Shown: piece after piece, positions 28,859 through 56,680 of the stretch | Layout: each line of letters opens with the position of its first letter | How positions within the stretch are numbered: the stretch's first letter is position 1 | Source of the DNA: Taxawa tesnikishii (nom. ined.) | Taxonomy: Eukaryota; Ascomycota; Dothideomycetes; Dothideales | Length of the DNA stretch: 64,000 nucleotides | NCBI GenBank assembly: GCA_030247885.1 | Contig: JAPDRO010000030.1 | Location: 202,416 to 266,415, forward strand | Direction of reading: 5' to 3' | The notes under the pieces: generated by a model | Database searches by the model: none | What the model saw: only the letters and a program-made list of their open reading frames with translations | Told to the model about the DNA's origin: nothing | Made by a program: the position numbers and the translations under genes

Positions 28859-31372
28859 TAAACTACTATCTTAATATAGCTAATATATAAATCTACTTAA
28901 TACGCGTTAAATACTATATTATTATAACTAAAAATAAGACTATAAGCCTACTTATAATAGCTATTATTATAAGGTTTTATAGTAGAGTAGTAAATAGACT
29001 TATATAAATAGTTTATACTACTTATATTTACTTAAAAGTATAACGTTATAATTATAGCGTATAGTAATAAGTAAGAGTAATAATATAATACTTAAAGCCT
29101 TCTTATTACTTATAATATTAACTACTTACTTCCTATACTTAATATTTTATTTACGTAAGTTTAAGGCTTTTCTCTTACTCTTTCGAGATAATTAAAAAGC
29201 TTTTATAGCGTTTTAAGCCTCTTACTAGCGAGCGCGTTTAACTACTTATTTAGTCTTCTTAGCCTTTTCTTTCTTCTTAATTACCTTAGTTACTTTTCTT
29301 ATTATATACTTCTCTTTAACTATCTTAAGCTTATATAGTTAAGTAGCCTTCTTAAGCTTAATTAACTTAGCTTTTTAAAGTTACTACTCTTTTTCTTTAC
29401 GTTTCTTTACTATCTAATAAGTACGTACTTCTTTAACTTTTTTAGTAACTAGAAAATAGCGCTACTATAATACTCTTTACGCTACTAAAGATTAAGAGGC
29501 TTACTATACTTCTAACGCTTCTTCTTATTACTTAGAGCTTCTCTAAGGCTCTTATTTTTATATTAAAGTAACTAGTTTTAACTAAGATAAAGTAAAATAA
29601 GTAACTAAGTTTTCGCGCCTTAGTAGTAGTATTATCCTTTACTACTACCTTAATAATTCGCTTTATCTTCCTCTAGTTAGAGGCGCTAAGTATTAACGTA
29701 AAGCTTTCTTATAATTCTTACTTATTTAAGGTAATATTAGCGAATTATTTAAGTATAATATCTATATTAAGTAGTAATATACTAGTTACTTTAAAGGAGC
29801 TAAGTACTATTATTTCTTTAAAGGAGCTTACTTATACCTTTTAAAATAAGAAAAAGAAGTCTTCCTTCTTAATTAATAATAGCCTTTAGCTTCTCTTAAG
29901 GAAAGCTAATAGCTCGTTTAAGTAAGCTTATAAGAGAAGCTTAAATATCGCTATATTAAGTAACTATAATATATATATTAAATAAGGAGGAAAGATAGTT
30001 AAGAGTATCTTATATTAATTATAATACTTAATAAAATCTATAGTAACGTAAGATTTATAGTTATTAAGAATAAGTAACTAGTAAGACTATTATACTTTCG
30101 CCTTAGTATAGTAATTAAATACTTATTTAAGCTAGGTAAAGCCTATATTATTATTTATCTAACTTAATAGTAATAAGCTAATATATACTAAGTATTTTCC
30201 TAGCTTAATATCTTTTACTTAACTTAGTTATATAGCTCTACTAGTAGCCTAATAAATAAGGCTTAGTAGTAATATTAATTTATTAGCGTATATATAAGCT
30301 AAAATAGTAATCTATTTACGTAAGCTATCTTATATAGCTACTTTAACTTTCTTCTTTTCTTATATTCGTCTACTAAATACTCGTTTCGATTAGCTAGTAA
30401 TACTAATTAAGAAGCCCTTCTTATTTATATTATATATATAGCGAGCCTTAATATTATATTAGTTAATCTTATAATATAATAAGTCGAAGTATAAGCTATA
30501 TTTATCCCCTAAATTAGCTTAATAGTAATTACTATTTATACTTATAGTCTACTATAAGATAAGATAGATACTATATTAGTTAATAAAGTAAGTAACTTAA
30601 GTCTTACTTATAGACTTTAGAGTTATTTTTAACGTAAAGTTTCGTACTATTTCTCTTATAGAAAGTAGGCCTTACTTTATAAGTCTTTTAATATACTATA
30701 TAAGCTCTTACTCCTATTAGTTACTATTAATATATATAACCTTACTTAAGGTATATAAGAGTAAATACTTACGTAACGTTACTTTTGTTATAAGTTAAAA
30801 GGTTATAAGCCTAAGTTAGCGCGTTAGTTAAATCGTAATCTCGATATATAATAGAAGGTTACAAGTTCGATTTCTACTTAAGTTATAGTAAAAGCGCGTA
30901 AAATCCTAAATGAGAGTAAAGCCTTAGTAAGCTATAAAGTCGGCTAATAAGCTCGGAAGGTTATAAGTCTTAAATCTATTAGTAACGTTATATGCTTATA
31001 CCCCTTACTAGAGTTAGGAGGAGTATTAATATATATAACCTTACTTAAGGTATATAAGAGTAGATACTTATATAACATTACTTTTATTATAAGTTAAAAG
31101 TTACTAAGCTTTTATTAGTTAAGTATATTAGTTATACGCGACGTTATAGTAACTTAGTACCTTCGCGTTAATATAGAACGTATAATACTATACTTATTAG
31201 CTATTCTAATATAGTTAGGAGATTCTCTAGGCTTTAGCGATTTTATTTTTATAAGCGTATCCTTAATTAAGCTTATATTAGTAAAGTTAATATAGTATTA
31301 AAGTTTAAGATAGTTAGTATCTACTATATATTAAGTAAATCTACGTATTAGTTATACTAAGATAGTAGTCTA
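28859..31372 (-). mobile_element. Pogo-like element D (HTH_psq plus DDE_1 relic), inserted in family C copy 3
   Basis: Its ends are inverted copies: TA followed by AACTACTATCTTAATATAGCT on the left, and on the right, in complement, TA followed by GACTACTATCTTAGTATAACT. On the minus strand, with stops read as mutated Gln/Trp, the N-terminal part (about 31260-31110) gives a psq-type helix-turn-helix (ESPNYIRIANKY then TRRYQ). Further on, about 30410, it gives the DDE_1 box YNINKKGFLI, the mutated form of the Asn-Met-Asp-Glu-Lys-Gly-Phe motif, then KKKVKVAI. Length without the 375-bp insert and its 5-bp duplication is about 2134 bp. Confidence 0.82.
30725..31099. mobile_element. 375-bp TRIM-like mini-LTR element with tRNA-like core (copy 1)
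   Basis: Two 76-bp direct repeats (30725-30800 and 31024-31099) start TATTAATATATATAACC and end AAGTTAAAA. They enclose a 223-bp internal region. The unit is flanked by the 5-bp duplication GTTAC (30720-30724 and 31100-31104). A purine-rich run GTTAGGAGGAG lies immediately before the right repeat, where a polypurine tract belongs. The internal region has an A-box-like TAGCGCGTTAGTTA at 30817 and a B-box-like AGTTCGATTTC at 30864, spaced as in a tRNA gene. No protein is encoded. It lies inside pogo element D. Alternative: a tRNA-derived SINE with flanking duplications. The 5-bp duplication and PPT favour the LTR/TRIM reading. Confidence 0.8.
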
Positions 31373-33101
31373 TACTAAAGCTAATATCTAAAATATACTT
31401 TATACCTTAAAAGAAAAGTAATACTCTTTTATTTATAAGACTATTAATATATATAATATTCCTTATAATACTCTATGTAATTATATAGCTAAATAAACTT
31501 TACGCGTAATAGCGCGTAAATTATAATAAATCCTTTCAAACGCGAAAGAGAAGACTTTTATTTAATAAATTATACGTCTTATATATATTAGCTTTCCTAC
31601 TTTACTTACGTTAATTATATAAATAACTAAAGAAATTTAACGCGAATATATATAACTATTAAGGACTTCGTAACCTTTTCCTTAACTAATTAGTAAGAAG
31701 TAACTCGACTACTTTAAAACCTACTATCTTAAGATAGTAAGTATTTAGACTCGTTAAATTAAAAGTATATACTTTAATACGATAAGTTATAACGCTATAA
31801 AGAGATAATTTAATATAATAACGGAGCTATTTATATAGTATAACTACTTTCTAAAGTACGTTTATAATATAAATAAGTTTAACTTTATAGTAAAAGTAAG
31901 TTAAATATTAAGAGCGTTAGTTAATATACGCGAGGTAATTAATTAAAAGTAAATCGAAAGTAAATAAGAGTAAATAATTATAATCGAGTATATAAATACT
32001 ACTAGGAAAGCTATATTACTCTTAATTATCTTTAAGGCTAAATATACTAATACTATATAAGTACTTATATATACGCCTTTAAACTAAAAGTTTTTAACTA
32101 GTAGTAGTAGTTAGATATCTAATAATTATAGTTTATAATAACTAACTACTATCTTTAAGCCTTTAACGTAACTAAAGAACCTTACAATATAAAGAATACT
32201 AATTATAAATAGTTATAATAACTATATAACTATAAAGGTAATTACTTTCTATATAGAGAATATAATTAACTTACTTATCTTATTATTATATTATTTATAT
32301 ATACTTTAACTACTTAATATTAGCGTATTTACGCTACTTAAGTACGCGTTAACTTTAGAAACTAATGCTACTTTACGAGTTAACTTTAACTATATAGTAT
32401 ATATAAAATAAACGGAGATATATATTTACGTAAGAGCGAAGGTCTTTAAGGCTAGTAGTATCCTTAGTAAGTAAAAAGACGCTAGTCTCTAGCCTTTAAA
32501 CCTTATAATAGTACTTAATAAGTTACTTACGAAGCTAACTATAATAGATATATAACCTTATATACTTTAATAATAACTTAATCTAAACCTTTTACTATTA
32601 AATAACTTTCTATTAAATAGTATTAAGTTATATAAAGTAAATATAATACTTAAATTAGCGATTAAAGCTATATAGGACGTTTCTTTTTAATAAAGTACTA
32701 TATAAAGTAAATAACTCGCACTTTTAAAGCGACATATAGTAAGAACATTATATTACGTAAGTAGGTAAAAGAATAGTAAGAGCTTCTTAATATATAAAAG
32801 ACTTAAAAGAAGGGAAAGTAAGTCGTATTAAAGGGAAGATTTATATTTAGTACGTAAAAAGTACTCGAAATAGTTAAGGTAACTAAAGTAAAGTTATTTA
32901 TTAAAAAACTACGTAGACAATTACGTAAGTATTTAATTAAGGAAGCGCTAAAAGATAAGGAAAATAAAGTACTTAGAAATATATATAGCGACTTAGATTT
33001 TAACTATATTATTATAGTATGTAAATAGTAGTTAAAGCTAAAAGAGTCGCGTCTTAGTAGTTTACTACTTTACTTAGTTTACTACTTTATAGTTTACGTT
33101 A

Positions 33102-36100
33102 CTAGAGTACTTACTTAAAAGGCTAGTACTTATAACGAGGTTTATTAACTTTATTATAATAAATAATAGTAAGCTTATAAATATAGTCTTAAAAATATCG
33201 AGTTAATAATAATTAAACTACTATAACGCTATCGACGTAATAAAAGTAACTATATTTAATACGAAGTTCTAGTATTCGCTATAAGGTCCTAATAATTTAA
33301 TAAGTAATAAAATAAGTATAGTAATTAAAATAAAGTAGTTCTAAGCTAGTATCTTAGTCGATATAATAGTAATAGACTACGATTTAGCTATAGATATTAT
33401 AACTACTTATAGTAATAGCCTATAAATAGTAATATCTCCCTATTTAATATCTCTTTTATAAAAGAGTATCTCCCTATTTAACTAGTAAATTACGGCCTTA
33501 AGTAAGAAGATAAAAGATCTTTATTATTATATTTACGACTAATTTAAAATAGTATATTTTAAGACATATCGTATTTTAATATAGGAATCCGTCTTATATA
33601 AGCGGAAAAAGTAAAGCTATCCGAGATTACTAATATAGTACTATATACGGCGGTACTTATTAATAATTACTATAGCTAGTCGAAAGAGCTAAAATATTAC
33701 CTTAAAATATAAGGTTTAAAAATCCTGTTTAATACGGTCTATATCCTAATATAATAATATAAATACTTAGATATCGAAGTTATAAAGAGACTTCGAGAAA
33801 AATACGTAGAACTTTAGGAGTAATACTTATTTTTAGTTAAAGAGCTAAAATAAATTAAGGGAGTTATTTTTAACGCTTACTATAAATATATTATAGTAGC
33901 TTAGTATATAGCCTCGAGTTCGGAATTTTAGAGTATCTTTACTCCTTACTACCTTACTAAGGAGGAGTTAAAATAACCGGAATATCTACTATTAAATAGT
34001 ACCTTTTAATAGAAATATATATTAACTAATAGTTATTAGGAAGCTAACTTTATAGTACCTATTAATAGCTCTATTATAATAAATAGCGTTAGGTTTTCTT
34101 AAATTAATAAAGTTATAATTCTAGCGATACTATTAGTTAAAGTAACTAATTATAACGTAAATGAAATTAATAGATTAAAATATAAAAAGGGCTATATTAG
34201 TAATATAAACTAGCTATATAATAGTACTTAATATTTATTATAAAAACCTTCTAATAATATAAATATTAACTTATCTCTCTCTATTAAATAAAGTTTAACT
34301 TTATAGCTAGCTTATTAAAGTTCCTTATAACTATATTAATACCCTTCCTTTAAAAAAGATTAAGGAGACTTATATTAACGCCTTTAACTCTTAGCTAAAA
34401 GTCCTAGCTATATCTTTAATATCTATTAAATCTATTATTAGTATACTCTATTATTTATTTCTTACGCTTAATAATATCGAGGATAACTTAATACTATATA
34501 AAGGAAATCCTACTACTTATACTTTATTTAGTATAGTACTAATAATAAACTTAGCTAACTATATTTTTATATATACTTTCGAAGAATTTTAGTAACTTTA
34601 AAGCCTAGATATTATAGGAATCTTTATAAAAGAGTTAAAGAACTTATACTATAAATAAGCTTTAGACTTATATTAGAAATATTATATATACGTACTTACT
34701 ATTAAAGAGTATATAATAATAGTTAATTATAAGACTAGTAGTCTCTTTTAATTATATATTCGACTAATATAAAGTAAATCTAATAAGAAGAGCGAATATA
34801 TTAATATAAGTCGATTTGTTATATTACTTAGGCGTTATTTCTAAATTCGCAACAATTACTAAAACCTTATATTAAATAAAGTAAGATAGTATACTTAATT
34901 ATATTATAAAATAAAGTTAACTTATATTAGTATACTAGCTAAAAAGGCTTTTACGAGGACTTAAATAAGGGTAAGATCTTCCTACTACTTATTTACTATC
35001 TTACTAACTCTAATCTTAAATAGATAATAATTAGGGGTATATTATAATATAAAGGAGTTAGTAAGATACTAATAGAATTAAAAAGGCTAATCTTAAGGAA
35101 GATAAAAAAGGAAAGAGCCTTCGACTTTACTTTCTTATTACTTTAAGATATATAAGAAGATATACTTAAAGAGTTAAAGTTACTTAAAGTTAAATTTAAA
35201 TCTAAGAATTCTATCTTCGAATTAGTACTTAAAAGGTTATAAGTATAAGGAGTTATTTACTTATAGAAGCTATTTACTCTCTACTACTAACTAGTACTAA
35301 TACTATTAAAGATCGATAATAAATACTTTATTTAGACTTCTAGTAATACTACTTTAGTATCCTTAAAGTCTACTAGATTACTTACTAGTCTTAAAATATA
35401 TACTTATTTAATAATTTCGGATCTATTAATACTATATACTCCTACGCTTTATTACTAAGATTTACTTTTAGTCGTACGATCCTAGAGTCCCTCTTTTTAG
35501 CCTAGTAATATTACTACGTATACTATAACTAGATTTAAGATATATTTCGTTTTAGTTACTTTAAGGCCCTAGGTAACGTATAGTTCTAATTTATTATCGA
35601 TAATAATAGAAACTACTAGTTCTTAATTCTTAATATTAGTAATTAACTAGCTACTTTATTAAACTACTTATAACTATCGATTTATTACTTCCTCGAATAA
35701 ATAAGATATAAAGATAACTCTAATAGTACCTTTAAGTATAGTATCTAAGTTGTAAATATTAATATACGCTTTTTCGGTAACTTAAGTTATTAAGTTAGTA
35801 TACTCTAAGTACGTTTATTAGACCGACATATATAGACATTTATAATACTATAGGAAAATAAGGATATATAATATAGAACTAAGTTAAGGAAATTATAGTA
35901 AGTAATAACTTAGTATAAAGTATTTAAGTTTTAATATTAAGTATATTTTACGCTACTTAGGTACTATTTAGGAGGCTATCTCCTAGTAAAGTATTATTAT
36001 TTACTATATAATACTACTATAAAAGGAAGTTAAGAACTAAAGGAAGGAACGTATAACTCCTTAATTATTAGTAGGTTCTCTTAAGATTAATACCTAGGAA

Positions 36101-36669
36101 GTTAAGTTATAAGTTTTAACTTAACCTAAAGGAGTAAAGTAAAGAAGGTAATATATTATAGTAAATTCTTATATAATATCTCGACTATAATAAGCGTAAG
36201 TATAAAGCCTAAGGATATAATTATTAATCTATATATATAATAATTACTAGGCTATAGTCGATATACTACTAATAGTATTTAAGTATATAATATAAATCGA
36301 ATTAATTATCGGATAGGAATAATAACTAGTTATTTATACCCCTATATTTATCTTACTTAAAAAGACTATAAATATATTAGTAAGTCTTATTACTTATAGT
36401 TTTATATGTTAGTAATTACTCGTAAAGGTAATAATCTAAGATAATATAACTAATTACGAAGTCCTTATTAGTAAGCTAATAAGTAAAATATAAGCTTAAG
36501 TATTATTATTATTTACTCGAATTAACTTTCGCTAAAGCTAAATATAGTAGGAGTTAATATAAGTAGTACGCTTCTTTAAAGTAAGCTTAAGCGTATTATA
36601 ACGCATTTTTATATAGATATTATAACGATTTTAAATACATAATTTTATATTAGTTTTATCTCTTAAGAT
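33102..36669. other. RIP-degenerated repeat DNA, unassigned
   Basis: AT-rich block with dense stops between two TIR elements. A local near-palindrome flanked by TCTCCCTATTTA repeats occurs at 33436-33480. Residual coding-like texture around 34300-35600 suggests a large degraded transposon. I could not recognise conserved protein motifs. Confidence 0.45.
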
Positions 36670-38520
36670 TAACGTATTTTATAAGTAAGTTAGCTACCTA
36701 AGTAAGTCGGCTACCTTACGAAACTAGAACGCCTACGTAGCAATATTACGTAATACTATAATACTTTATAGTAGTCTATAGAATAGTATATAATTATTTA
36801 GAAACGTTACTATCTTCTATATCTTCTATTTCTACTTTATAGGTACGGGAGTTATACTTAGTCTCGCTATAATAGCTATAACGCTACTTTACGCGTACCT
36901 TCTTTATAGCCTTCTTACTATTATTACTACTACTACCCTCCTTAGTAGCAACTAGATTAGTTACCTTACCTACTATTAGAGTTTCCTCTATTTATACGTA
37001 TTACCTTTTATAGCTCTTACGCTTTATAGCTACCTTAATTACGTCTTATAGACGCGCTATTTCTTCGCGTATTAATACTATCTTATACGCTATTTACTAA
37101 GCGCCCTTAGTTAGTTACTTAACCTACTTATTTAAAGAGCTTACTAGAAACCCTTAATGTTTTTATATACGATTTGAAATTAGCGTTAACTACGCCTTTA
37201 TTTTACTAGCGTTATATAGTATTTTCGCCTCCTATTCGACTATACCTAGTATAAGTAGCGTTAGCGTACGTAGCCTTATATTTAGCTTCGATAATATAGC
37301 CTCTAAGTTATATAAGACTAGCCTAGCGCCTCGAAACTCTACGTAGATATTTTCCTATATAAACGCCTTCTTAAAAGCTACTTTAAAGGTAGTTAAGAAG
37401 GTTTCTTTTATAATATAGTAAACGTAACTATATACTAAGGCTAAGATCTCGTTACTATATAGGCGCTTTAGTAGTAAGTAGTAAATAACGTTAAGTAGTT
37501 ATAATAAGTATAAGGAGTATAAAGGTATATAAAGAACTATAATATTATTCTCCTTATAGTAATCCTAAAATTCGACTAAGTAGTAACTCTTATAGCCGTT
37601 AATAATAAGTAGCTTATATACCCTAATAGTATAAGTCTTCGTATACGTATCGAAGTACTTAAGCTACGTAAGTGCGAGCTTATTATTAGTCTAGCTAGTA
37701 GAAGAGACCTTAATAATTTAGTTATAAAGTAAATTGTTAAACTAGGTTAAGATAAGGACCTTACTTACGAAGATAATAAAGGGTAAGATAACGCGCCCTA
37801 TAGCTCTAATACCTTATATTAAAGTAACTTACTCGCAATTACTAAGTTATAGTTTCTTTTATTTACTAGGTTTCTTTAAGCTTATAATAACTAGCTAAGA
37901 TAATATCTTACTTATTAAAAAGCTAGATTTATTAAAATTATAAGTGTCCTTATCTAAGATACTATACTTCGCCTTTATTAATTAAATAAGCGCGAACTAG
38001 AGCTAAATAACTATTAGATCCTTATAAGTAACTCGCTAGTAATCGTACGGACGACTCTATTATATTCGTAGCTTAGGCGTACGCTTAATAAAGTTATTAA
38101 CTTAGTTCTTACTAATAGGCTTCCTATTACGCTTTCCTAGTAGTTTATTTACTATATCTCGTATATTTCCCTTCGAGAGTAGTACGCTACGTAGACTCTC
38201 GTCTAATATATACTATATTATTACCTTTTCTTCTAGTTTTATAAGGCGCTTTAATTTCGGCTTATAGTCGCGTCGAGAGCGCTATCTAGCGTATTAGTCT
38301 TATAGCGTTAATTAGGGTATAATATATACTACTATAGCGCGTCTCTCGCTTTAAATTTACTTAGATATAATATTAGAGATAGTAAAGTATATATCTCCTT
38401 TAATATAAGTATATTATACGTTGCGTTATTAAGGTATTACGTAATATTACTACGTAGGTATTCTAGTTTTATAAGGTAGTTAACTTACTTAAGTAATTAA
38501 CTTACTTATAAAACACGTTA
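36670..38520 (-). mobile_element. Family B pogo-like TIR element, full length, RIP-degenerated (copy 1)
   Basis: The 1851-bp unit has TIRs of about 90 bp: TAACGTATTTTATAAGTAAG at the left and the complement ending ...TAAAACACGTTA at the right, with terminal TA. It is the inverted counterpart of 49432-51282, which has exactly the same length. The relic of the CCHC knuckle seen on the plus strand in that copy lies on the minus strand here near 36860, so the transposase read on the minus strand. Confidence 0.88.
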
Positions 38521-40650
38521 CTAATACTATATTACTTAAGTTACCTTCTAATAAAGAGAGTATAAAACTTATACTTATAGCTATTAAATTATTACGTACT
38601 ACTACGAGTTACGGGATTTTTATAAATTATATAGTTTTAATAATCGAAGAGTAATAAAATACTCTCTTAATACTATAATTTAAGCCTCTTTCTTATATAG
38701 TAGCCTTTTTAGTAATAGTTCTAGTTACATTTTACTAGCGCGTTTTATTAAATATACTACTATTAAATATAAAAGGTTTCTTCGAGTTTTCTAATAAATA
38801 CGCGAAGATAGTATTTATAGGTAATACTAAGTAAATACTATATAATTAGTTTAAATAAAATCCTAATTAACTTATCTTAATTTATAATAATATTAAAACG
38901 GTTATAATATTGCTAGGAAGTATAGTAAATAAAATCTAAAACAATAAAAGATTCTACTTACGCTAGTAAGTTAAAAGGGTATATATACTTATTATTTTAA
39001 CGTAATCACTATTTTTAATATAACTTTAGATAATATATAGTCGTCTACTAGGCTTTAAGGTCTTCTATAACGATAATAATAACTAGCTCGTTAAGGCTAT
39101 AATTAATAAAGATCTTACTAAATAACTAGGTAAGTACTTTCTATAGTAGCTTATAGTAATTATATCGCTAATATAGTATGTAACTAAGGTCACCGCGCCC
39201 CTTGTCGAGGAGACTTCGTTAGCCCTAGTAGATATACTTAGTAAAGGTAGAGGTATATATATAATGTCGTTTAGACTCCTTAACTAAGCTAATAGATATA
39301 AACTAGCGTAGTTTACCTCTCTAAGGTACTATTCTTAAGCTAATCGCTCGCCTTTCCTTACGAGTTTTCCTTAGTACTAAGCTCTATTACGACGAAGAAT
39401 AGCTCTAAATTACTTAATAGTATATAGTAATATTATTCTTAGCTATATAAGACCTTTAGTTATAGTCTCCTTAGTTACGGCCAATTGCGAACTTATTCCT
39501 TAGTAAATGCCAAATAAGTCGTACTCTTATATAAAAGGCCCGAGAAGCGATTTAACTCCTTATTTAAGAACGTATAGAACCTAAAGCTAAAGCCATAAGA
39601 GAGTAGGAGCTAAAGTTTAACGACGCGATCTCTTAGTTCGAAGACGCGGTAAATACGATACTATATAATCCCTAAATTGTTTAACTATCGCTTTTAATAG
39701 TAGCCGTCTATATAATAACAAATCTACTATCCTAAACGTAGGCGAATATTATAAAGTATCCTAAGATTATTAAGGTACTACGAAAAGAAATAATTTCGAT
39801 TCTTAGCGAGGATAAGAGATTAAAAACTATATTATTAAATAAAATAGTACTTCTCGATAGTTATAATAAGGAGAGTTAGCGTTTAAAACTATTATCTATA
39901 AGTAAGGTAACTAAGCGTCTTTACTACTATATTAGAATTTACTAATAAGAGTTTCCTTAGTATTAATAGGCTAAATAGCTACTAAGCGTATAGTTCTTTC
40001 TAATAGTACCGTGATTCCTAAGGGCCAAAGTATACTAGTTAATACGAGTAAGATATAGGACTCTAAAGTATATCTTATATCTCCGGAAAAATAGGATAGA
40101 TATCGTTTCCTTCGTATGCGCGAAGATCTTAAAAAGCGGGATTTAGCCTAACTCGTAATAACGTCTCTTAAATAGATTGTATTCGGTTATAGCATTTACG
40201 CTTACCTAGCCGCTTTTTCGTAGCGAACGAAATTAAGATTATATTAACTATTATCTTACTTAAGTATAAGTTAAAGTTAAAAGAAGGCTAGATAATAAGG
40301 GATTTAATTATAGGTTTACTTGCAACTTTAACTCTTCTATAAGTACAAGCGTTAAACGTCGCAAGGAAGAAATTACGATATAATAGATAGCTATAGCTTA
40401 AGGGTCTAACTTCCTAAGTAACTTAACGTCTTATATAATGTTAAGATAAGCGGTAGTACGAACTATAGAAAGGCTTTAAAGGATTGCGATAATTTTGAGC
40501 TAAGAGAAACGATCTCTAGTATATAGCTTTACTAGGAAGTTATTAAGTATAAGTATAGTATTATACTTTATTTAGCTCGCATAAGAGTTTATGCTAAGTA
40601 TTCATCTACTCTAAGTATATAAGGGAACAAACTATATACCTAAAGGCCTC
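38521..40650. other. RIP-degenerated DNA with a less mutated segment
   Basis: AT-rich block ending at the second gene island. The part from about 39170 to 40500 keeps more CA/TG and CG words than its neighbours and gives longer coding-like runs, so it is less intensely mutated or younger. I recognise no protein. Confidence 0.45.
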
Positions 40651-40868
40651 CTACCTTACGGTTTTATGTATGTAATAGTAATACTTCCGACGGAGGTAAG
40701 TGCTACAAGTAATGCTTACTACCCTTACTCCCTTTGTATATATAGATCCGCGACAAAACCCTGTCTCCTCGCGTGTAACTTAAGTCTCAGTATCCTAAGC
40801 TTCTTGAAACTGCTCTGTTCCCTTAAGACAACTATTCGTCCGTACCTTTTACTTCATAACGAACATCG

Positions 40869-42247
40869 ATGTGTACTATGGCAGTGTCTCCAGGTGATAG
40901 CTATACTATCCCTTTAGACATATCACTAGATGCATGTCTCGACGCAGTGGCTAAGATACTGGCCGCACATGCGGGACGAGCTATGTACGCTTACGAACGC
41001 GATTCGATATGGCACGTCGGTGTTGACAGCCAAGCATCTTTCACTATCGATCCGCCTAGCGAAATGGCAACAATTGAGACGGACACCGCTCGCTCCTCTA
41101 CTAAATTGACTAGAGATAGTAAAGAGGCCATCGCGGCCTTTACTTCTCACTATGCCCAAGAAGGAGGGATGATATTTGGCCAGATCGGCTTCAACTACTC
41201 TGCTTACATCAATGGTGTCAAGTTTGAGCCGGGCTCCTGGCCATTAGTTAGTCTTTTAGTCCCGCGGTTGCAAGTCCGTGTCCAAAAAGGTGCTGTCTCG
41301 CTCCGCAATTGGACAGGGAAAGACTTGCAAGTCATCAAAAAGCACTCTCGCATCCGTTTGCAAACATTGGGACGCAAGGCCGGCCTGACGAATCAATGAA
41401 TGGAGGATCATATCGAGATGTCGTGCAGCAAGCACTGAACGAAATCGCTCAAGGCTCTTATCAAAAAATTATCGCCTCTCGGACTATAGATCTATCATAT
41501 AAGGTCGATATGGTCGGAACTTTGGTATGCGGACGACGCGCCAATACGCCTAGACGCGCATTTCTGGTCGACCATCGGGGCTTCAGCGCCACCGGATTCA
41601 GTCCTGAGCTTGTCATGTCTTTTCAGGATGGCAAAGTCACCACCGAGCCGCTTGCCGGAACTAGGGCTAATGTAGGCACGGAAAGGGAGCGATCGCGGCT
41701 ACAGAATGATCTCCTCAATGACCCTAAGGAAGTGATGGAGCACATTATCTCAGTCCAAGAAGCAATGAGGGAAATGAAACAGTTTTGCGCGGATGGCACT
41801 GTGGCCGTGGCCGATCTCATATCTGTGAAGCGTCGTGGAAAGGTGCAACATCTGGCTTCCACAGTCACTAGAACTCTCTGCCCGTCTAAGGACGTATGGG
41901 ACGCTTTAAACGTACTATTCCCAGCAATTACTGCTACTAGTATTCCCAAAATGAAGGTCATCGAGGCTATCCATCGTCTAGAGACTTGCCCTCGCGAACT
42001 CTACTCAGGAGCTATTCTGCTTTTTGACGGATCCAAATCAGTCGAGGCATCGTTAGTCCTTCGGTCGGTCTTCCAAGATCCCGAACGCAGCTGGCTACAA
42101 GCGGGAGCGGGGATCATAGCCTTGTCGACCCCGGATCGAGAGCTCACAGAAACGTGTGAGAAGCTGCGAAGCTTTGCTCCCTTCGTGATGTCGATCAGGG
42201 AAGAAGCAGCGGGAACATTATCCATAGGGAAGGGGAACGCATGGTGA
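40869..42247 (+). pseudogene. Salicylate/isochorismate synthase-like chorismate-utilising enzyme, one frameshift
   Basis: Two overlapping frames (40869-41399 and 41309-42247) together make one enzyme of about 458 residues of the anthranilate/isochorismate/salicylate synthase family, which converts chorismate to isochorismate or salicylate. Motifs in order: GSYQKIIASR (general-base Lys region), GFSPELV, TEPLAGTRA (Glu of the Mg site), DPKEVMEHIISV, VQHLASTV, FPAITATSIPKM, PRELYSGAI, LQAGAGIIALSTP and ETCEKLRS. All are in the usual spacing, and the C-terminus is complete. The frames join if one A is missing from the A5 run at 41337-41341; no plausible intron lies there. The start at 40869 has a second Met three codons later. 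Catalytic residues seem kept, so the break may be recent or a consensus error. Salicylate synthase rather than isochorismate synthase is my best guess from the overall pattern. Confidence 0.82.
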
Positions 42248-42278
42248 AGCGGAACATGGACGAGCTACCCGCTGGCTT

Positions 42279-42625
42279 TCACAGTCGTTTACTATATGCA
42301 ACAACAACGCAATCGGAGTCAGAGCCGCTAGAGTCACTTTCAACTATACCCTCTTCTTCCTCCACGATCATGGGCATGATCAGCCTCTTACCCCGCTGCC
42401 TATGTGACCTCTTGATCCTCTTGTCTTCCTCGGCTTGACGTGCAGTTTGGAGAACTTCTCGAGTTGTCGGCACAAATTCGCCTTGCAAAGCGATCCTCTT
42501 GCCCTTTGTACGCTTTTTTAGGTATGAAGAAGTTCCTCTGCGTCTGCTAGCCGCTTCCGAAACGTTGCAAGCTCGCTTCGGGTGACCTCAAAAGTCTGGG
42601 TCATCCGCTGGACGTATCTCTTCGC
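42279..42625 (-). pseudogene. C-terminal remnant of a pogo/Fot1-type transposase, not RIP-mutated
   Basis: On the minus strand a frame reads EVTRSELATFRKRLADAEEL (about 42604-42545), a coiled-coil-like segment. A one-base shift then leads to YLKKRTKGKRIALQGEFVPT and TREVLQTARQAEEDKR, ending at 42279. The basic KGKR segment followed by xLxGxFVxTTxEVL is the tail of fungal pogo/Fot1 transposases and matches the relic in family C. Unlike the transposons elsewhere in the window, this one keeps CA/TG. It is a frameshifted fragment lacking HTH and DDE regions. It begins just 31 bp after the salicylate-synthase stop. Confidence 0.65.
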
Positions 42626-43420
42626 TGAGCTCACGAGGTTGCTACCTTAATTTAGCTTAGAACGAAGAGCTGCACTTGCCCCACGTAGTTCCGTATCTAA
42701 GTAGGTGCTTTTTAGTTCCTGACTGTCAAGTGGCGCAGTTATGCTGGCGATACAGGCCAATGGTGCACCCGCTGGGGAAGTTTTGCAAAAGCATTGATAA
42801 TGTTTGCCGTGCCAAACAAATCGACAACGCCCGCAGTAGGAATGACGGTCTCAAAACGATCAAGCTCTCCTGCCGCTCCAGGCCATTGAGCCTAGACATT
42901 GCAGCTGCAGCATCGAGTCTATACGTCCTGACCTAGTATTGTTGCTGCTTAGCGGCAATATCTCGTCCCATGAAAACCAAGAACTCGCCCTTCGATATAT
43001 GCTCCTTGATTGTTGGCTAACGCAGGATTAGAACCGAGCTATAGGGATTGGACCTCTTGGCTCTGCTCGAGGTTGACGATTTGATCCAACGTTTCGGATA
43101 TGTCTTGCAGTTGATATAACTTGAAGCAAGGCAAGCCATCATAGACTAGCATTGGAGTACTGTCATGAATCCCACTCTCAATATCGACATTAAGAAAGTC
43201 CTGGGACTCCCTGCTCTCTTTCCAAATCTTTCGTGTACTAAGGAAACAATGTACCGTGGAAGGGCTTGACTGTAGAGTCAACGTAGTGATAAGAGAAGAA
43301 TCCCCTAGAGTTCGAGGACACATGGTAGCAGTGTTGGTGGACGGGAATACTAAACACAAAATGGTGTCTACACTCTATTGCGTCCAGCTACATGAGTCTT
43401 TCGACTCCAAGTATCGAGCC
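42626..43420. other. Unidentified stretch between transposase remnant and HMG-CoA reductase
   Basis: Normal-composition DNA. The minus strand has a 106-codon frame (43359-43039) containing NVDIESGIHDSTPMLVYDGL, and further scraps at 42960-42700 (GVVDLFGTANIINAFAKLP in one frame). These look like fragments of degraded coding sequence. I cannot name the gene. They could be a broken neighbour or distant downstream exons of another gene. Confidence 0.35.
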
Positions 43421-45152
43421 CTACGACTTCCGGTTATAAACCATGTGGCTCCGTACAATGGAGCCGGCGGCCAGTGATGATAACAGGCTCAATTCTCCCG
43501 CTAACACGCCTGCTGCGATGATACATGCCAGCTTTTGGGCATTCCTCCCAGGTGCTTCATTGTTGGCGCCACGTATACCCAAGAGATCGAGTATCGCAGC
43601 TTGTGACTCTAACCTAGTTTCACCACCGATAGTTCCTACCTCGATTGATGGCATGTAGACGGAGATCTGTAAATCTCCTTCGGCAGTCCTGCATCATTTG
43701 TCAGCTTCGCACGATACAAGTACCGGAGGGAAGGGCTGGTATTACTTCTTCATAGCTGTGAGACAGCCACTGCTTTCCACATTCTGCGCGGGATATGGAC
43801 CGGTAGCTATAAAGATGGCGGTAACGATATTGGCAGCGTGAGCATTGAAGCCGCCCACGGCGCCTGAGACTGCATTTCCTACCAAGTTTTTACTCGTGTT
43901 GAGGTCGACCAGATTATTGACATCGGTCTTAAGAACGCGGTGAAGCACGTTAGTAGCGGTAGTTACTTGGGCACAAACACTTTAGCCACGGCCGTCGATC
44001 CAGTTTATCGCTGCGGCTTTCTTGTCGGTACAGTGGTTACCGCTCAGAGTGACGACCTGCACATCGTCGAAGCCGGCGGAGGCAATAGCAGACAAAGCTG
44101 CGTCGACACCTTGACTGATCATATTCATTCCCATGGCATCACCAGTCGTGGCTTTGAAGCGAGCGAAGACATCCAATCCAGTCACGGTGACGCGTACGCT
44201 GCGGAGCTTTGCAAAGCGGCTTGTGCTGTTGAAGGCTATTTCGACGACTTCGTATCCCTGCGGTGTATCGAGCCAGTGTTTCAATGCAGCTGCACGTTGC
44301 AAGTCGGGGAAGCGGAGAGCTAGACCACGAGTCATTCCATCGTCGAGGAGGGTCGTAGTAACACCTCCGCTAGCATTTATCGCAGTGGCACCACGGTTCG
44401 TACTCGCGACTAGTACGCCTTCTGTAGTTGCCATCGAAAGGTAGAATGAGGAACCGTTGATATCGAGTGGTCCAGCTACGCCCACGGGCAGTGGCAAGTA
44501 GCCGATGGCGTTCTCGCAGCAGGCACCCACGACCCGGTCGTAGTCGTAGTTGGTGTATGGAAGGCCAGAAGTTTCAAGCTTGGAAGTAGTGACTTGTTCG
44601 CGGATTCCTTGCTACGATAGCTCGGCGGACCTGCACAGCGCGGGTAGAGTCTCCCAGGACCTTTTCAAGGCTGTAAAGGGCAAGATTGTTCTCGAAGGCT
44701 TTTCTGACGACGTCTTCATCGTTCATAGTCTGCCATTCGCCGGGTGTGGGTCCGGTAAGGTTGGTATTGCGAGCGATCGAGGCCGCATCCGCTGCCTCCG
44801 GCAGTGCCACTTGCAATGTTTTAGTGGGAGATTTTGGCGAATCATTTGTCGGTGTCTTGGAGAATGGGCAGCTTTTGAATGAAGTATTCTCATCCGGTTT
44901 GGCACATGCCTTTGCGGACGGATGAGTAGACGACGTCGGAGTACGAGCATACTGCTGGTCTGAAACCCCAGTTGCTGTAAGCAGATACAAAACGGCGAGA
45001 TATGCTGCTACCGCGCAAACCAAACCACCGAAAAGTTTTGTGGCCCATGAAGATGTTCTCCATGGCTCCGGTGTCAGGGGGCTGAAGAGGGTCTTGTCTA
45101 CACAGCTCACAGTGTAACCGCCTTCGGCCTGATCGCTCCCTGTAATGAGCAA
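43421..45152 (-). pseudogene. HMG-CoA reductase, N-terminally truncated and degenerate
   Basis: Minus strand. The product would reduce HMG-CoA to mevalonate with NADPH at the ER. An N-terminal piece (45152-44574) has one membrane segment, LFGGLVCAVAAYLAVLYLL, a Ser/Thr/Pro linker and LALYSLEKVLGDSTRAVQVR. A one-base insertion at 44594-44595 shifts into [51 protein letters not shown] (catalytic Glu) and [19 protein letters not shown] (catalytic Lys). A TAA stop (43982) follows, then [27 protein letters not shown] and AQNVESSG. A 57-nt intron (43745-43689) leads to the C-terminus with [12 protein letters not shown] and RSHMVYN (catalytic His). The multi-span/sterol-sensing N-terminus is missing. 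The catalytic Asp expected in the GQDPAQN box is Tyr (GPYPAQN, codon at 43793-43795). The gene is almost certainly inactive. Confidence 0.88.
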
Positions 45153-45367
45153 TATCCCTGTTGACTTTCCAAATTGCTTCTGAGCACAGAGACGTTGGAC
45201 ATGATCCCAGGTTTGGTGAAGCTCATGGCTGGCATCTTTGTTGAAAGACGCTCCGAAAGACTATCGCAAGATTGTAGTGCACGGTAACTCGACGAATGCA
45301 TCCGATACTCAAACGGGTCGCTTGGAAGGTCGCGTTTCTTGTCCGTGATTGAGAGTTGAGAGACCGT
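45153..45367. other. Spacer between HMG-CoA reductase remnant and the PD-(D/E)XK-like gene
   Basis: Normal-composition spacer. A short minus-strand frame (45301-45107) overlaps it and may include lost 5' sequence of the reductase gene, but no conserved reductase motif is seen. Confidence 0.3.
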
Positions 45368-46903
45368 TCACGCTCCTTCTAGCCTCCATACCGCAGCGCG
45401 AACAACTCCTTCGAACATTACCCAGAAATCTGTGTCCAGATAGTCGAGCATCCGTCCTAGTACGTTGAGCAAAGCAAGCAGGGTATACAAATCACTAGTT
45501 CCAACCTCTTGCCGTGGGAACGGGCCGCACACATTGACGGCGCCAGAAGTGTTATCTTTCCAGGACAGGTAGAAACTCCACCGGTGACCGATAATTGTCC
45601 ATGCGATCTGGACGGGTAGCTGCGTGCTTGTGTCCGTGCCGAGGCGGGACATGTGTTCCAGTGAGCCGTATAGCCAGACAGCAAGTTGCAGTTCTGCTTC
45701 TTCTTGAGATCCGGCAGGTCTCTTCAGCTCGATAGGACAGACGAGAGGGACCGTGCTTGTATACGTATCAGCCATATGGCTGAGCGGTATCTCATCGTGG
45801 CTACCTGTTAAAGAGGTTGCTTGGGTGAGGTTACGCATCGATTCGTCTTCCGGATCATAAGCCAGAGCCAGATCTACCTTCTTCTGCATGGAACCCAGCC
45901 CGTTCCTTAGAAGATTGGCTCGTGGGAGGTAGCTGGGGGAGATGGATTGGGTCGAACTGTGTGAACTTTCAGCAGCAATATTGTGAGCGAACAGGAGGAC
46001 ATACATGTTGTTAAGTTCGAAATGTCTCGTGTCAGCGTTGCGGCTCTGAAGGGCTAGTTTGAGGACATCCTGAGCAACGAGGGTCCAGGCACTCTCGTCC
46101 TTGCGTCCGTCGTGACAGCGTCGCGCCTTATCGCTAATCTCGCAAATAGTCCGCCACAGAATCTCAGTGTGTGCGCCCTGTTGACCGAATGCTTGCGGTT
46201 GTACCTCGTCGAACCCGACAGAGTCTCTCTCTTGCAATCTCTCGCGCCATCCGTCCGGAATGTATTCAGTTATCTGTGTTAGAGCTCGGCGAAGACGGCT
46301 CACGGGGCCTGGTTCTGTGATAGTTCGGTCGCCTGGCTGTAGAATGTGTATTGGTGTCGGGCCGTTGCGAAGGGCGGCGATTGCGCGTCGTGGGCTAACA
46401 GAACGAGTTGGGGAGGTCGAAGACGGCCTTCTTGCGGTGCTTGATGTTGAACGTAGATCCGGAACATTGTGCAATGGATTCGACGGGCGATGTGGACTGC
46501 GATCAGGTGTAGGTTGGGCGCCGTGTGAGGACATGGACGGCCGGCGACGCTTCTTGACTTGTGCGATACAAGGCTTGTCGCGCTCTCGCTTGCGCTTACG
46601 CCCACGCTCCGGTTCACTGTCGGAGGACGCAGTCGTAAATGGAGGTGAGATCGGAGCAGACGATTGAGGTGTGGCCATTTGTCGAGGCGATGGCGATGGC
46701 GATGGCGATGGCGATGGCGATGGCGATGGCGACGGCGACGGCGACGGTCGTAGGCGCGCGGTGTTGATGTTGCCTGACTTCAGGACTTGCCGTGTTTGTT
46801 GTTCCTGCAACGCATCCTCACTCGGCAACAAAGCCAATAGTGAATCACAATCCGAAGTTTTGCCGCCGACATACTTCACCGCCGGCACATTAGAAGGATC
46901 CAT
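45368..46903 (-). CDS. Fungal PD-(D/E)XK nuclease-like protein with Ser-Pro repeat
   Basis: An uninterrupted 511-residue frame starting MDPSNVPAVKYVGGK. Residues about 50-80 contain alternating Ser-Pro, encoded by a hexanucleotide microsatellite. Residues about 95-125 are basic (RGRKRKRERD, KKRRRPS) and look like a nuclear localisation signal, followed by a Ser/Pro-rich disordered region. The C-terminal half is folded: YIPDGWRERL, VDLALAYDPEDE and CPIELKRP (E-x-K near residue 390), then QLAVWLYGSLEHM. This matches the layout of the PD-(D/E)XK-like domain common in fungal hypothetical proteins: an acidic residue, then ExK, then QLxxW. The substrate is unknown. No stops or shifts are present, so this is the best-preserved gene of the second island. 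Confidence 0.78.
   Translation of the reverse strand: MDPSNVPAVKYVGGKTSDCDSLLALLPSEDALQEQQTRQVLKSGNINTARLRPSPSPSPSPSPSPSPSPSPSPRQMATPQSSAPISPPFTTASSDSEPERGRKRKRERDKPCIAQVKKRRRPSMSSHGAQPTPDRSPHRPSNPLHNVPDLRSTSSTARRPSSTSPTRSVSPRRAIAALRNGPTPIHILQPGDRTITEPGPVSRLRRALTQITEYIPDGWRERLQERDSVGFDEVQPQAFGQQGAHTEILWRTICEISDKARRCHDGRKDESAWTLVAQDVLKLALQSRNADTRHFELNNMYVLLFAHNIAAESSHSSTQSISPSYLPRANLLRNGLGSMQKKVDLALAYDPEDESMRNLTQATSLTGSHDEIPLSHMADTYTSTVPLVCPIELKRPAGSQEEAELQLAVWLYGSLEHMSRLGTDTSTQLPVQIAWTIIGHRWSFYLSWKDNTSGAVNVCGPFPRQEVGTSDLYTLLALLNVLGRMLDYLDTDFWVMFEGVVRAAVWRLEGA
46685..46748. repeat. Hexanucleotide GGCGAT/GGCGAC microsatellite inside coding sequence
   Basis: About ten tandem hexamers, GGCGAT grading into GGCGAC. 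On the minus strand they encode (Ser-Pro)n in the PD-(D/E)XK-like protein. Copy-number change would alter repeat length without shifting the frame. Confidence 0.92.
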
Positions 46904-46907
46904 TCTC

Positions 46908-47513
46908 CCAATCCACCGCTACTCGTGTACGACCGCGCATGCGCAGAAGTAGGCGTTGACGCCCGACTAATATATCGAGGCCACACGGCGCCCGTGACAG
47001 GGCTTACCTCCCACCCATTCCGCGGCAAGGTCGATCTAGGCGATGTTTTCTCATCCTCGTCTCTCGACTGGAGCATCAAGCTCTGGCGCGCGCGACTACA
47101 CAGTTCCGTCCTGGCCACAAACACTTCTTCCTCCACCACAACCACAACATCTGCGCCAACCACTTTTAGCCCAGTCGAATACCACTAGCACAACCACGAA
47201 CCTCCAAACCGAGACTCCCCTTCTGATGTTCCCCTCGAATCCCCTATCTATGACATCGTCTAGTCTTCGCCGCCGTATCCGGCGCCGGCTCCCTCGACGT
47301 CCTCGACCTCGCCCTCGACACCGAAGTCCCCGTCGCGTCCGCTGTGCCCAGCCACGCCCTCGACGACGTATTTGGCGTCAAGAGCCTAAATCGCGTCTAT
47401 TAGGAAGGCAACGAGAGGAAAAGGATCGTGACTAGTAGGCTGGATAGGGCCGTAAGTGTTTCCGAGGTGGGTGGGGAGCCAGGTGGGAATGCTAGTAGAG
47501 GGGAGCAGATAGG
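46908..47513 (+). pseudogene. Dynein intermediate chain (WD40) fragment with TAG stops
   Basis: The plus strand reads VYDRACAEVGVDARLIYRGH, TAPVTGLTSHPFRGKVDLGD and SSSLDWSIKLWRAR, a strong match to a C-terminal WD40 blade of cytoplasmic dynein intermediate chain. Further on come SPIYDIV then a stop, FAAVSGAGSLDVLDLALDTE and SLNRVY then a stop, then EGNERKRIVTSRLDRAVSV, which are the last blades. In-frame TAGs at 47186, 47261 and 47401 fit CAG or TGG codons changed by C-to-T or G-to-A, and a frame change near 47264-47268 indicates a small deletion. The N-terminal two-thirds is absent. The fragment begins 5 bp from the start codon of the divergent PD-(D/E)XK gene, so a rearrangement joined them. 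A housekeeping copy presumably exists elsewhere. Confidence 0.75.
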
Positions 47514-48834: not shown

Positions 48835-51800
48835 ATGGATAAAGCAATTGCTAAATTACGTGCCTCTAACTCTCCGAATGTAGCTACTATAGTAGTAAAG
48901 TACAAGCTCGTTAGATCGACCTTCTAAAGAAGATAAAAGGGTATTACTACTAATAGGAGCTAAGTTATTAAAGATTCTAGGTTCCTAAACTAGTAATAAG
49001 AATAGTAGCTTTTACTACATATTAGATAGCTATATAATTGATGCCTTTTACTTATACTAGTAATCGTAGCTAAGATAGTTACTTAGCTTAATAAAGAGCT
49101 CCTAAGTATAACTAGTATTTAAGGTTTATTAAGAAATATAGGGACGAGCTAAACTCTTAATATCTTAATAATTTAGACTTAGAAAGGTATTAAGTTAACT
49201 TTATAACTTTCTTTAAGTAATATTTCTCTATTATTAGTAAGAAAATAAACAAGTACTAAATACTACTAGAAAATACTTATAATATAAATAAGAAGGACTT
49301 TCTTCTTAAAAGAATTACTAAAGTTAAACGAATTTTTTAAGAGACTTATAAGTATCTTAAAAGCTTCTTAAAGTTAGTTAAGATAAATTAAGAAAGTAAA
49401 TTATAGTTATAGTAATAATATATATAAATAATAACGTGTTTTATAAGTAAGTCGACTACTTAAGTAAGTTAACTACCTTACAAAACTAAAATACCTACGT
49501 AGTAATATTACGTAATACCTTAATAACGTAACGTGTAATATACTTATATTAAAGGAAATATATACCTTACTATTTCTAATATTATATCTAAGTAAATTTA
49601 AAGCGAGAGACGCGCTATAGTAGTATATACTATACTCTAATTAACGCTATAAGACTAACGCGCTAGATAGCGCTCTTAACGCGACTATAAGTCGAAATTA
49701 AAGCGCCTTATAAAACTAGAAGAGAAGGTAATAATATAGCGTATATTAGACGAGAGTTTACGTAGTATATTACCCTTAAAGGAAAACGTATAAAATATAG
49801 TAGATAAACTACTAGGAGAGCGTAATAGGAAGCTTATTAGTAAGAACTAAGTTAATAACTTTATTAAGCGTACGCCTAAGTTACGAACGTAATAGAGCTA
49901 TTTATATAATTACTAGTAAGCTACCTACGAGGATCTAGTAGTTATTTAGCTCTAGTTCGCGCTTATCTAGTTAATAAAAGCGAAGTATAATATCTTAAAT
50001 AAGGACACTTATAATTTTAATAAATCTAACTTTCTAATAGGTAAGATATTATCTTAGTTAGTTATTATAGGCTTAGAGAAACTTAGTAAATAAAAGAAAC
50101 TATAGCCTAGTAATCGCAAGTAAGTTACTTTAATATAAGGCGTCGGGACTATAAGGTACGTTATCTTACTCTTTATTATCTTCGTAAGTAAGGTCCTTAT
50201 CTTAACTTAGTTTAACAATTTACCTTATAACTAGATTATTAAGGTCTCCTCTACTAGCTAGACTAATAATAAGCTCGCGCTTACGTAGCTTAAGTACTTC
50301 GATACGTATATAAAGGCTTATACTATTAGGTTATATAGGCTACTTATTATTAATAGTTACGAGAGCTACTACTTAGTCGAATTTTAGGATTACTATAAGG
50401 AAAATAATATTATAACTCTCTATATACTTTTATATTTCTTATACTTATTATAGTTACTTAACGTTATCTATTATTTACTACTAAAGCGCTTATATAGCGA
50501 TAAGATCTTAGCCTTAGTATATAGTTACGTTTACTATATTATAAAAGAAACCTTCTTAATTACCTTTAAAGTAGCTTTTAAGAAGGCGTTTATATAGGAA
50601 AATATCTACGTAAAGTTTCGAGGCGCTAGGCTAGTCTTATATAACTTAGAGGCTATATTATCGAAGCTAAATATAAGGCTACGTACGCTAATACTACTTA
50701 TACTAGGTATAGTTAAATAGGAGGCGAAAATACTACGTAATACTAGCGAAATAGAGGCGTAGTTAACGCTAATTCGAAATCGTATATAAAAACATTAGAG
50801 GTCTCTAGTAAGCTCTTTAGATAAGTAAGTTAAGTAGTTAACTAAGGGCGCTTAGTAAATAGCGTATAAGATAGTATTAATACGTAAAGAGATAGCGCGT
50901 CTATAAGACGTAATTAAGGCGACTATAAAGCGTAAGAGTTGCAAAAGGTAATACGTATAAATAGAAGAGACTCTAATAGTAAGTAAAGTAACTAATCTAG
51001 TCGCTACTAAGGAGAGTAGTAGTAGTAATAACGGCGAGAAGGCTATAAAGAAAGTACGCGTAAAGTAGCGTTATAACTATTATAGTAAGACTAAGTATAA
51101 TTCCTATATCTATAAAGTAGAAATAAAGGATATAGAAGATAGCGACGTTTCTAAATAATTATATACTATTCTATAGACTACTATAAAGTATTATAGTATT
51201 ACGTAATATTGCTACGTAGGCGTTCTAGTTTCGTAAGGTAGCCGACTTACTTAGGTAGTTAACTTACTTATAAAATACGTTATAGCTTTACCTTCTTTCT
51301 TAATTTATAATAGTACTTTTAACTTTATTTAAGACTTATAAGTTTAAGACTTTAACTCTAATAAATACTAAGTTTAGTTTACTTCTTTACTAAGTAGCTA
51401 GACTTTTAATAAGATTAGTTTTAAGTAGCTAAAAGACTTATTTAATAAGAAAACTTAAGATAAAGTAAAGAGAAATTAGAAGCTATTATTTATTAATAGT
51501 TATAAATCTTATATAACATTAAAGTTCCTTAAATAAGCTTAATAGTATAAGATTCTTATTACTATATATTCTTTCTACTTTATATATAGACTATAGCCTT
51601 TAGATATTAGTTACTTTACTCCTTTAACTACTTATTATAGCTAGCTACTTAAATAGTAAACTACGCTCTTAAAAGACTAAATAAAAATAGTTAAGAAAGA
51701 TTTTTTAAGTACTTTTATTTAGCTTAATATAAGGCCTTTATAGATAAGAATATTACTTCTAATTAAAGTAAAACTAACTTATTTCCCTTTAACTTTACTT

Positions 51801-52430
51801 TAATACTTAATAAGTTTAAGTTAAGAAACTAAAGAAAACTAATATTAAGAAAGCTAAGTAAAGGAGTATTAAGTAGTCCTTTTACTTATTAGGACTCTCT
51901 TTTAATATAAGAGAGTTAAGAGTAATTATTAATAAGATAGTAAATAAAAAGACTAAGAAAGTTATTAAGAGGCTTAGTAATAATTTCTAAAAGAATAAAG
52001 TAAAGACTACGCTTAAGAGGCTTAGTAAGTAGTAAGTAATAAAGGCTCTAAAGTATAAGAAAAAGAAAAGGAAATATAGTAAGAAGTTAATTAAGTAGTT
52101 TAAAGCTAATAAGGATTTTAAAGTAATTCTTTTAGCCCTAATAAAGTAAGGGCTACTCTTAAGCTTTAAGACTAAAGGAAATAAGAGAAAAAGTAAAAAA
52201 AGAAAATAAAAAGTAAAAGACTTAAGAAAGAGTTATTAAGAAAGTTAAGAAAGAATAGGAGGCTTAAAAGAGGCGTAATAATAAAGCTATAACTTAAGTT
52301 ACTTATAAGGCCTTTAAAGCTTTAAAGAAGACTTAAAGGAAAGTAAAAAAGTAACTAAAAAGGCTTAGAAATAAGCTAAGTTAAAGGTAAAGACTTAAAA
52401 TAAGAAGTTAAACTTAAATAATACTTAGTT
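48835..52430 (+). mobile_element. Pogo-like element E, split by a family B insertion
   Basis: The plus strand at 48835 reads MDKAIAKLRASNSPNVATIV, then KYKLVRSTF, the psq-type helix-turn-helix of fungal pogo transposases. Near 49276 comes TYNINKKDFLL, mutated from the DDE_1 Asn-Met-Asp-Glu-Lys box. The reading resumes after the inserted family B copy. Near 51477 comes RLLFINSYKSYITLKFLK (second acidic box), then IYSFYFIYRL, PLDISYFTPLTTYYS (third box). A basic Lys-rich tail follows to about 52260. Only the first 90 bp are lightly mutated. The right end merges into a family A copy at about 52430, so the element is truncated there. Confidence 0.8.
49432..51282 (+). mobile_element. Family B pogo-like TIR element, full length, RIP-degenerated (copy 2)
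   Basis: 1851 bp, identical in length to the inverted copy at 36670-38520. The left end is TAACGTGTTTTATAAGTAAG and the right end ...TAAAATACGTTA, with about 90 bp of matching TIR and terminal TA. Near 51067-51111 the plus strand reads RYNYYSKTKYNSYIY, which with Tyr as mutated Cys/His is a CX2CX4HX4C knuckle at the transposase C-terminus. It is inserted in the coding part of pogo element E. Confidence 0.88.
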
Positions 52431-56627: not shown

Positions 56628-56680
56628 TATAGAATATTAGTATATATAAGGTACTAATAAACTATATTAATTTACTATTA

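Follow-up and report, generated by a model that had tools for sequence, protein, structure and literature searches.

Where miniature LTR elements contain pieces of tRNA, these have been described as promoters borne by the LTR, and the fungal hosts covered by that account are Basidiomycota only (PMC10886601). What defines the Helenus group of TRIMs is that the LTR contains a tRNA sequence (Kojima 2024; PMC10886601), and the primer sites of its fungal members, in the sections that treat them, mostly match anticodon loops, with initiator tRNA-Met dominant (PMC10886601). In the plant element Cassandra, as summarized in the same source, the LTR holds a Pol III promoter and the transcript begins and ends in the repeats (PMC10886601). 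Ty5 is described as priming from a 3' end generated within initiator tRNA-Met, in its anticodon loop (PMC5371799). Among ascomycetes, TRIMs have been reported in Cochliobolus, Venturia and Zymoseptoria, and the parts of those reports that describe the elements do not mention tRNA pieces. No TRIM with an interior tRNA-like segment was found in our literature search, which was not exhaustive.

We analyzed a 64,000-nt stretch of DNA (hereafter, the window) that forms the right end of contig C24, in a fungal genome of 29.4 Mb and 34 contigs. The window terminates in TTAGGG repeats, the telomere check having covered this end. It contains two 375-bp units on the + strand, both mutated by RIP, at 30725-31099 (copy 1, GC 0.27) and 52725-53099 (copy 2, GC 0.31), where an earlier note on this DNA had placed them. 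The target duplications claimed in that note were confirmed, GTTAC on the left (30720-30724) and right (31100-31104) of copy 1 and ATAAC on the two sides of copy 2 (52720-52724 and 53100-53104). In copy 1 the left LTR (30725-30800, +) has a TATA-like word at 30752-30761 and a TTTT run at 30783-30786, and is matched by a right LTR at 31024-31099 (+); the LTRs of copy 2 are at 52725-52800 and 53024-53099 (both +). Their length of 76 bp is as had been described, whereas their supposed exactness is not, with 5/76 mismatches between the two LTRs of copy 1 and 6/76 in copy 2. Both copies also have the expected 223-bp interior and a polypurine tract region ahead of the right LTR (31011-31023 and 53011-53023, +), which reads AGGGTTAGGGGAG in clean copies. 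We put at about 0.8 the probability that these units belong to a recently active family of non-coding TRIMs, 374 bp long with 76-bp LTRs, that is moved by a resident Ty1/Copia element.

The element had been recorded as found twice, which holds for the window and not for the genome. Genome searches recovered at least 21 full-length copies and at least 11 solo LTRs, and a query with a clean copy added two solos (at least 13), all of these counts being lower bounds. The full copies are nearly fixed in length (373-375 bp, n = 21). Seven are clean (373-374 bp, GC 0.47-0.48), their LTRs each reading TGTTAAC...GTTAAAA, and differ from the reference copy at 0 (the reference itself), 0, 0, 1, 2, 2 and 6 positions. 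Within six of them the left and right LTRs differ by 0, 0, 0, 1, 1 and 2 bases, and in the seventh by one substitution and one deletion; the apparent 28 differences of the copy at C3:13425 stem from a one-base deletion and are not real. Identical sequence is shared by three clean copies, each with its own target duplication (CCTAC, GGTTC and ATACG).

Exact 5-bp duplications flank 17 of the 21 full copies and 7 of the 13 solo LTRs, the latter comprising six found by script, with two rows mis-anchored, and one of those two that was exact by eye. An exact duplication is thus present at most full copies rather than at every one, and the 4/21 full copies and 6/13 solos without one count against a TRIM family moved by Copia. 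Open reading frames inside one clean copy reach at most 58 aa. As in TRIMs, the element is shorter than 1000 bp, has two direct LTRs and no coding capacity, carries a primer-binding site 3' of the left LTR and a purine tract 5' of the right LTR, makes a short target duplication of fixed length and leaves solo LTRs. The TRIM identity first suggested from the two window copies is now strong, given the solo 76-bp repeats, the duplications at 17/21 copies and a primer site of Copia type. Among the copies recovered, we saw neither variable duplications nor simple tails, and the second repeat was not normally missing, any of which would have pointed to a SINE. A larger element with the same ends, also considered earlier, was rejected, as genome searches with the LTR and with the element gave full copies and solos only. 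Neighbors in the same orientation as a full copy occur on C6 (at 1.7 kb) and C8 (at 0.4 kb). A 23-base pattern of the element had no exact match in the viral contig collection.

Two solo LTRs at one locus (L026) are inverted and 0.9 kb apart, at C1:105751-105824(+) and C1:106730-106812(-). Their duplications are swapped (GATAA/TTAAC and TTAAC/GATAA, read by eye, the script having mis-anchored the second), as expected if recombination between the solos inverted the intervening stretch. Within the clean LTR, CACGTG adjoins TGACATCA at element positions 46-57; the older copies mostly have G at positions 54 (9/14) and 352 (12/14), which would give TGACGTCA.

Fourteen of the 21 full copies, including both in the window, are wrecked by RIP. 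Summed over these 14, there are 1015 substitutions relative to the reference, of which 970 are C>T or G>A, and CpA sites were mutated at 525/602 (87%), compared with 36% for CpG, 20% for CpC and 15% for CpT. This excess and the CpA preference indicate the signature of RIP. The flanks have a GC content of 0.16-0.28 in 20 of the 21 full copies and 0.42 in one. All 14 mutated copies lie less than 36 kb from a contig end, compared with only 3/7 clean copies. RIP typically hits repeats longer than 400 bp, according to the part of the literature that gives a size (PMC4522978). The 374-bp element and most of the 76-bp solos are heavily mutated, inside flanks that are already AT-rich, and 6/7 clean copies are in AT-rich flanks too. 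This pattern on an element below 400 bp would be compatible with leakage from the flanks, with a lower threshold in this fungus, or with the clean copies having inserted recently. With seven clean copies beside 14 mutated ones of the same size, the family offers a test of how RIP treats repeats shorter than 400 bp.

The surroundings of the window copies were also profiled. In the stretches 29001-40000 and 49001-57500, CpA and TpG fall to 0.05 of the expected frequency and CpG stands at 1.76, which is near-saturated RIP. A GC-rich subtelomeric island at 40860-46918 contains genes for a chorismate-binding enzyme, a piece of HMG-CoA reductase and a PDDEXK_12 nuclease-like protein. Pieces of a helicase gene (DEAD, Helicase_C) and an OrsD domain occupy 58118-62569, near the TTAGGG array toward 64000, and look like a telomere-linked helicase split over frames.

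The sequence directly 3' of the left LTR, GGTTATGAGCCCGGGTT, is a primer site that matches initiator tRNA-Met in its anticodon loop; it is at 30801-30817 (+) in copy 1, where it is the RIP-mutated complement of that loop, and at 52801-52817 (+) in copy 2. The first 14 bases of the site pair with CCGGGCTCATAACC, a sequence present at three of the four GGGCTCATAACCC loci in the genome, the fourth locus matching 13. The interior of the resident Copia begins with the same 17 bases. This primer region, clean or with RIP-type changes, occurs at 40 places genome-wide, compared with none for the reversed control. It lies 3.3-6.5 kb upstream on the same strand of 36 of 47 RVT_2 matches, some of which are pieces of one element, and is missing from 11. 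The best-traced Copia (L095) has two 167-bp LTRs starting with TGTTA, GTTTA duplications on both sides and a purine tract ending in GAGGAGGAG ahead of the right LTR. Its gag, Pol_BBD and RVT_2 domains fall in different open frames. For L096 an exact LTR could be traced over 106 bp only, and for L097 the right LTR was not found within the fetched stretch.

The TRIM thus shares its primer site and 5-bp duplications with the resident Copia, and on these grounds it is probably mobilized by Copia in trans. The partner is something we infer, since the LTRs of the TRIM and of Copia show no similarity beyond the starting TGTTA, a point that weighs against the pairing, as does the TRIM LTR ending in AA and not the usual CA. 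A search of the genome contig collection with the primer-site motif gave six matches, two of them in apparently fungal Copia elements (L120 and L125), where the 17-nt site follows an LTR-like end. The 17-mer therefore marks a Copia group and not the resident family alone, which also tells against assigning this partner. The contigs that contain L120 and L125 are filed under soil genomes of Acidobacteria and Bacteroidetes.

A further difficulty for the Copia pairing is that none of the four GGGCTCATAACCC loci received a tRNA call from ARAGORN. Three of them seem to carry pieces of initiator tRNA-Met interrupted by introns, which would explain the silence there; the fourth is unlike a tRNA gene. 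We read by eye six apparently interrupted loci that had been picked by motif (3' half matched, gene uncalled), namely the three initiator tRNA-Met loci (L091, L092 and L093) and L126, L127 and L128. In 6/6 the 5' part of a nuclear tRNA was found upstream of the 3' half. The inserts are short, start with GT, end with AG and mostly have a CTAAC-like branch word near the end, so that they seem to resemble spliceosomal introns. In all six loci a putative intron is in the D-arm/D-loop region, where it would split the A box; L091 seems to have two introns, and L126 and L127 apparently have a second insert after the anticodon. A limited literature search found no report of spliceosome-type introns in nuclear tRNA genes.

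The interior had been read earlier as a tRNA-like Pol III core with A-box-like and B-box-like words and an acceptor-like stem. We compared a clean copy with a subset of the nuclear tRNA genes in this genome, 17 in number. A first pass had used 27 tRNA sequences and 300 simple shuffles, none as good; ten were then dropped, comprising L063 (wrong orientation), the four GGGCTCATAACCC loci and five weaker candidates, and the later tests used the 17. The interior matched tRNA-Ile (L099) with a score of 40, reached by 0/1000 dinucleotide shuffles, the next best of the 17 scoring 26 and the dropped weaker candidates including L117 at 37 and L116 and L113 at 30. For the whole element, 1/1000 shuffles was as good. 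The alignment with tRNA-Ile keeps register over element positions 92-146 (30816-30870, +, in copy 1), running from the A-box place as far as the T loop.

The B-box-like word is sound. It is at 30865-30875 in copy 1 and 52865-52875 in copy 2 (both +), reads GTTCGATTCCC in clean copies and scores 16.3, inside the range of 11.7-18.0 seen for nuclear tRNA B boxes (the matrix was built from 15 of the 17 genes, since the pattern used failed to fit L099 and L102), and the element's best B score was reached by 1/1000 shuffles. The A-box-like word did not survive scoring. At its expected place (30816-30827 and 52816-52827, +; TTAGCGCGTTGG in clean copies) no A box scored, the value being 1.0, or 7.3 allowing one missing base, compared with 8.1-14.1 in the 17 tRNA genes. 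The best A score on either strand, 5.4-5.7, was reached by 634/1000 shuffles. The best A+B pair was reached by 0/1000; this pair owes its score to the B box and takes its A word from 101-110, away from the tRNA-aligned place. The layout of a type-2 Pol III promoter, with an A box in place ahead of the B box, is not what the element has. The supposed acceptor stem fell away as well, its 5' arm being mostly the primer-binding site and the tRNA models being silent. ARAGORN found no tRNA in the window and nine copy loci, and Rfam at E<=10 gave neither a tRNA nor a 5S match in both window copies and one clean copy. No special RNA fold was seen in the interior (z-score 0.00, with the folded stretch shifted by one base), and with ARAGORN and Rfam this led us to reject a cloverleaf tRNA gene there. 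A second tRNA-like unit in the right half of the interior was dropped (52/1000 shuffles as good, self-match 34/500). What stands of the proposed core is a tRNA-derived segment with a B box, without an A box, acceptor stem or folded tRNA.

The likeness rests on the B box and the T-arm region, and from the alignments we read the segment as tRNA-derived, having kept its B box sound and lost its A box. It could instead be chance added to a primer site, the acceptor-like and A-box-like words coming from the Copia primer-binding region. In keeping with this, GGTTATGAGCCCGGGTTAGCG, which extends into the A-box word, also occurs 3' of the LTR-like end in the Copia L120, the tRNA models ARAGORN and Rfam are silent, and the A-box half is matched by 61/2000 shuffles (92-125), or 232/2000 with the primer site included (77-125). 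Such a coincidence is nevertheless unlikely: positions 98-166 were matched to tRNA-Ile as well by 1/2000 shuffles and the T-arm half (126-166) by 11/2000, chance rarely yields such a B box, and the score of 40 was reached by 0/169 gene-region windows (best 36) and 0/46 Copia windows (best 31). The segment might also serve as a working internal Pol III promoter, outside the LTR, that makes the transposing RNA. TFIIIB would then be placed by the left-LTR TATA-like word (element 28-34) together with the B box. The RNA would begin within the left LTR, at about 57-62, and stop at the right-LTR TTTT (357-360), so that only a few bases would be redundant. The B box, the 0/1000 result for the A+B pair, the restriction of sense-strand TTTT runs to 59-62 and 357-360, and the presence in this genome of some tRNA genes with TTTT and then another base just 3' all speak for such a promoter. 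The chance-level A box speaks against it, and a TATA-driven start would be farther than usual from the A-box position. Transcription of a pre-tRNA normally starts about 10-12 nt ahead of tRNA position 1, which would be element position 86, so a standard start would fall at about 74-76, the junction of LTR and primer site. Because the tRNA-like part is 3' of the primer site, a standard Pol III transcript misses nearly all of the left repeat, and an RNA of 74-360 lacks LTR bases 63-72, present in every full copy, and cannot rebuild the left LTR. We consider a working Pol III promoter quite unlikely and favor a Pol II transcript as the carrier of the element, a choice drawn from this layout. If true, the Pol III reading would give Pol III-driven LTR elements a third layout, in an element that by its size falls short of the approximately 400 bp commonly cited for RIP.

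Two classifications would account for a tRNA-like piece in another way. The first is membership of Helenus, whose fungal members, as far as the source describes them, likewise combine a tRNA-derived piece with 5-bp duplications, an initiator-Met anticodon-loop primer site and Copia partners (PMC10886601). The duplication and the Copia-type primer site are both found here. In Helenus, however, the tRNA piece is in the LTR, and here it is in the interior; the LTR scored 19 for tRNA similarity, with 641/1000 shuffles as good. We therefore do not file the element as Helenus despite the likeness. The fungal hosts in Table 1 of that source are all Basidiomycota (PMC10886601), whereas the present genome looks ascomycete from its RIP at CpA and its 2EXR and OrsD domains, and membership is very improbable. 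The second is a SINE, either single or as a head-to-tail duplicate, which we regard as the least probable of all. The degenerate tRNA-like part with a retained B box is indeed shared with tRNA-derived SINEs of the SINE2 type, but those lack LTRs, a primer site and a purine tract and integrate differently. Instead of absent terminal repeats, a tailed 3' end and variable duplications, the element has 76-bp direct terminal repeats, 5-bp duplications, a primer site, a purine tract and solo LTRs, and no tail.

For a TRIM moved by Copia, the cycle may be pictured as follows. Pol II would transcribe the element from the TATA-like word of the left LTR into the right LTR, and Copia proteins would package the RNA. 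Cleavage of initiator tRNA-Met in its anticodon loop would release a 5' half that primes the minus strand at the primer site, as reported for Ty5, and the purine tract would prime the plus strand. Copia integrase would then insert the DNA, giving the 5-bp duplication, and copies would later accumulate RIP mutations or shrink to solo LTRs. The tRNA-Ile-like segment, between primer site and purine tract, would not be needed for the transposing RNA. It is most likely a captured passenger, and most simply a fragment of a tRNA or a SINE head that the transposing RNA could dispense with. A recently active family with an interior tRNA piece, in a RIP-proficient probable ascomycete, helps to separate promoter from passenger explanations of such pieces.

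Among known systems, Cassandra resembles the element as a small LTR element bearing Pol III-type promoter sequence, but in the description available its promoter is that of 5S rRNA and lies within the LTR; the present element has no 5S match at E<=10. The analogy to Cassandra drawn earlier is thus loose, the tRNA-like part here being 3' of the primer site and outside the LTR. Ty5 and Drosophila copia likewise have a primer site that pairs with the anticodon loop of initiator tRNA-Met; they are autonomous and coding, and a tRNA-like segment is not mentioned in the passages that describe them (PMC5371799, PMC10886601). The resident Copia elements (L095, L096 and L097) have the same 17-nt primer site, but differ in their unrelated 167-bp LTR, in being coding and in the absence of a tRNA-like segment across the 46 windows scored. 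L095 shares more with the TRIM, namely the TGTTA start, GGAG ahead of the right LTR, a 5-bp duplication and an LTR end other than CA.
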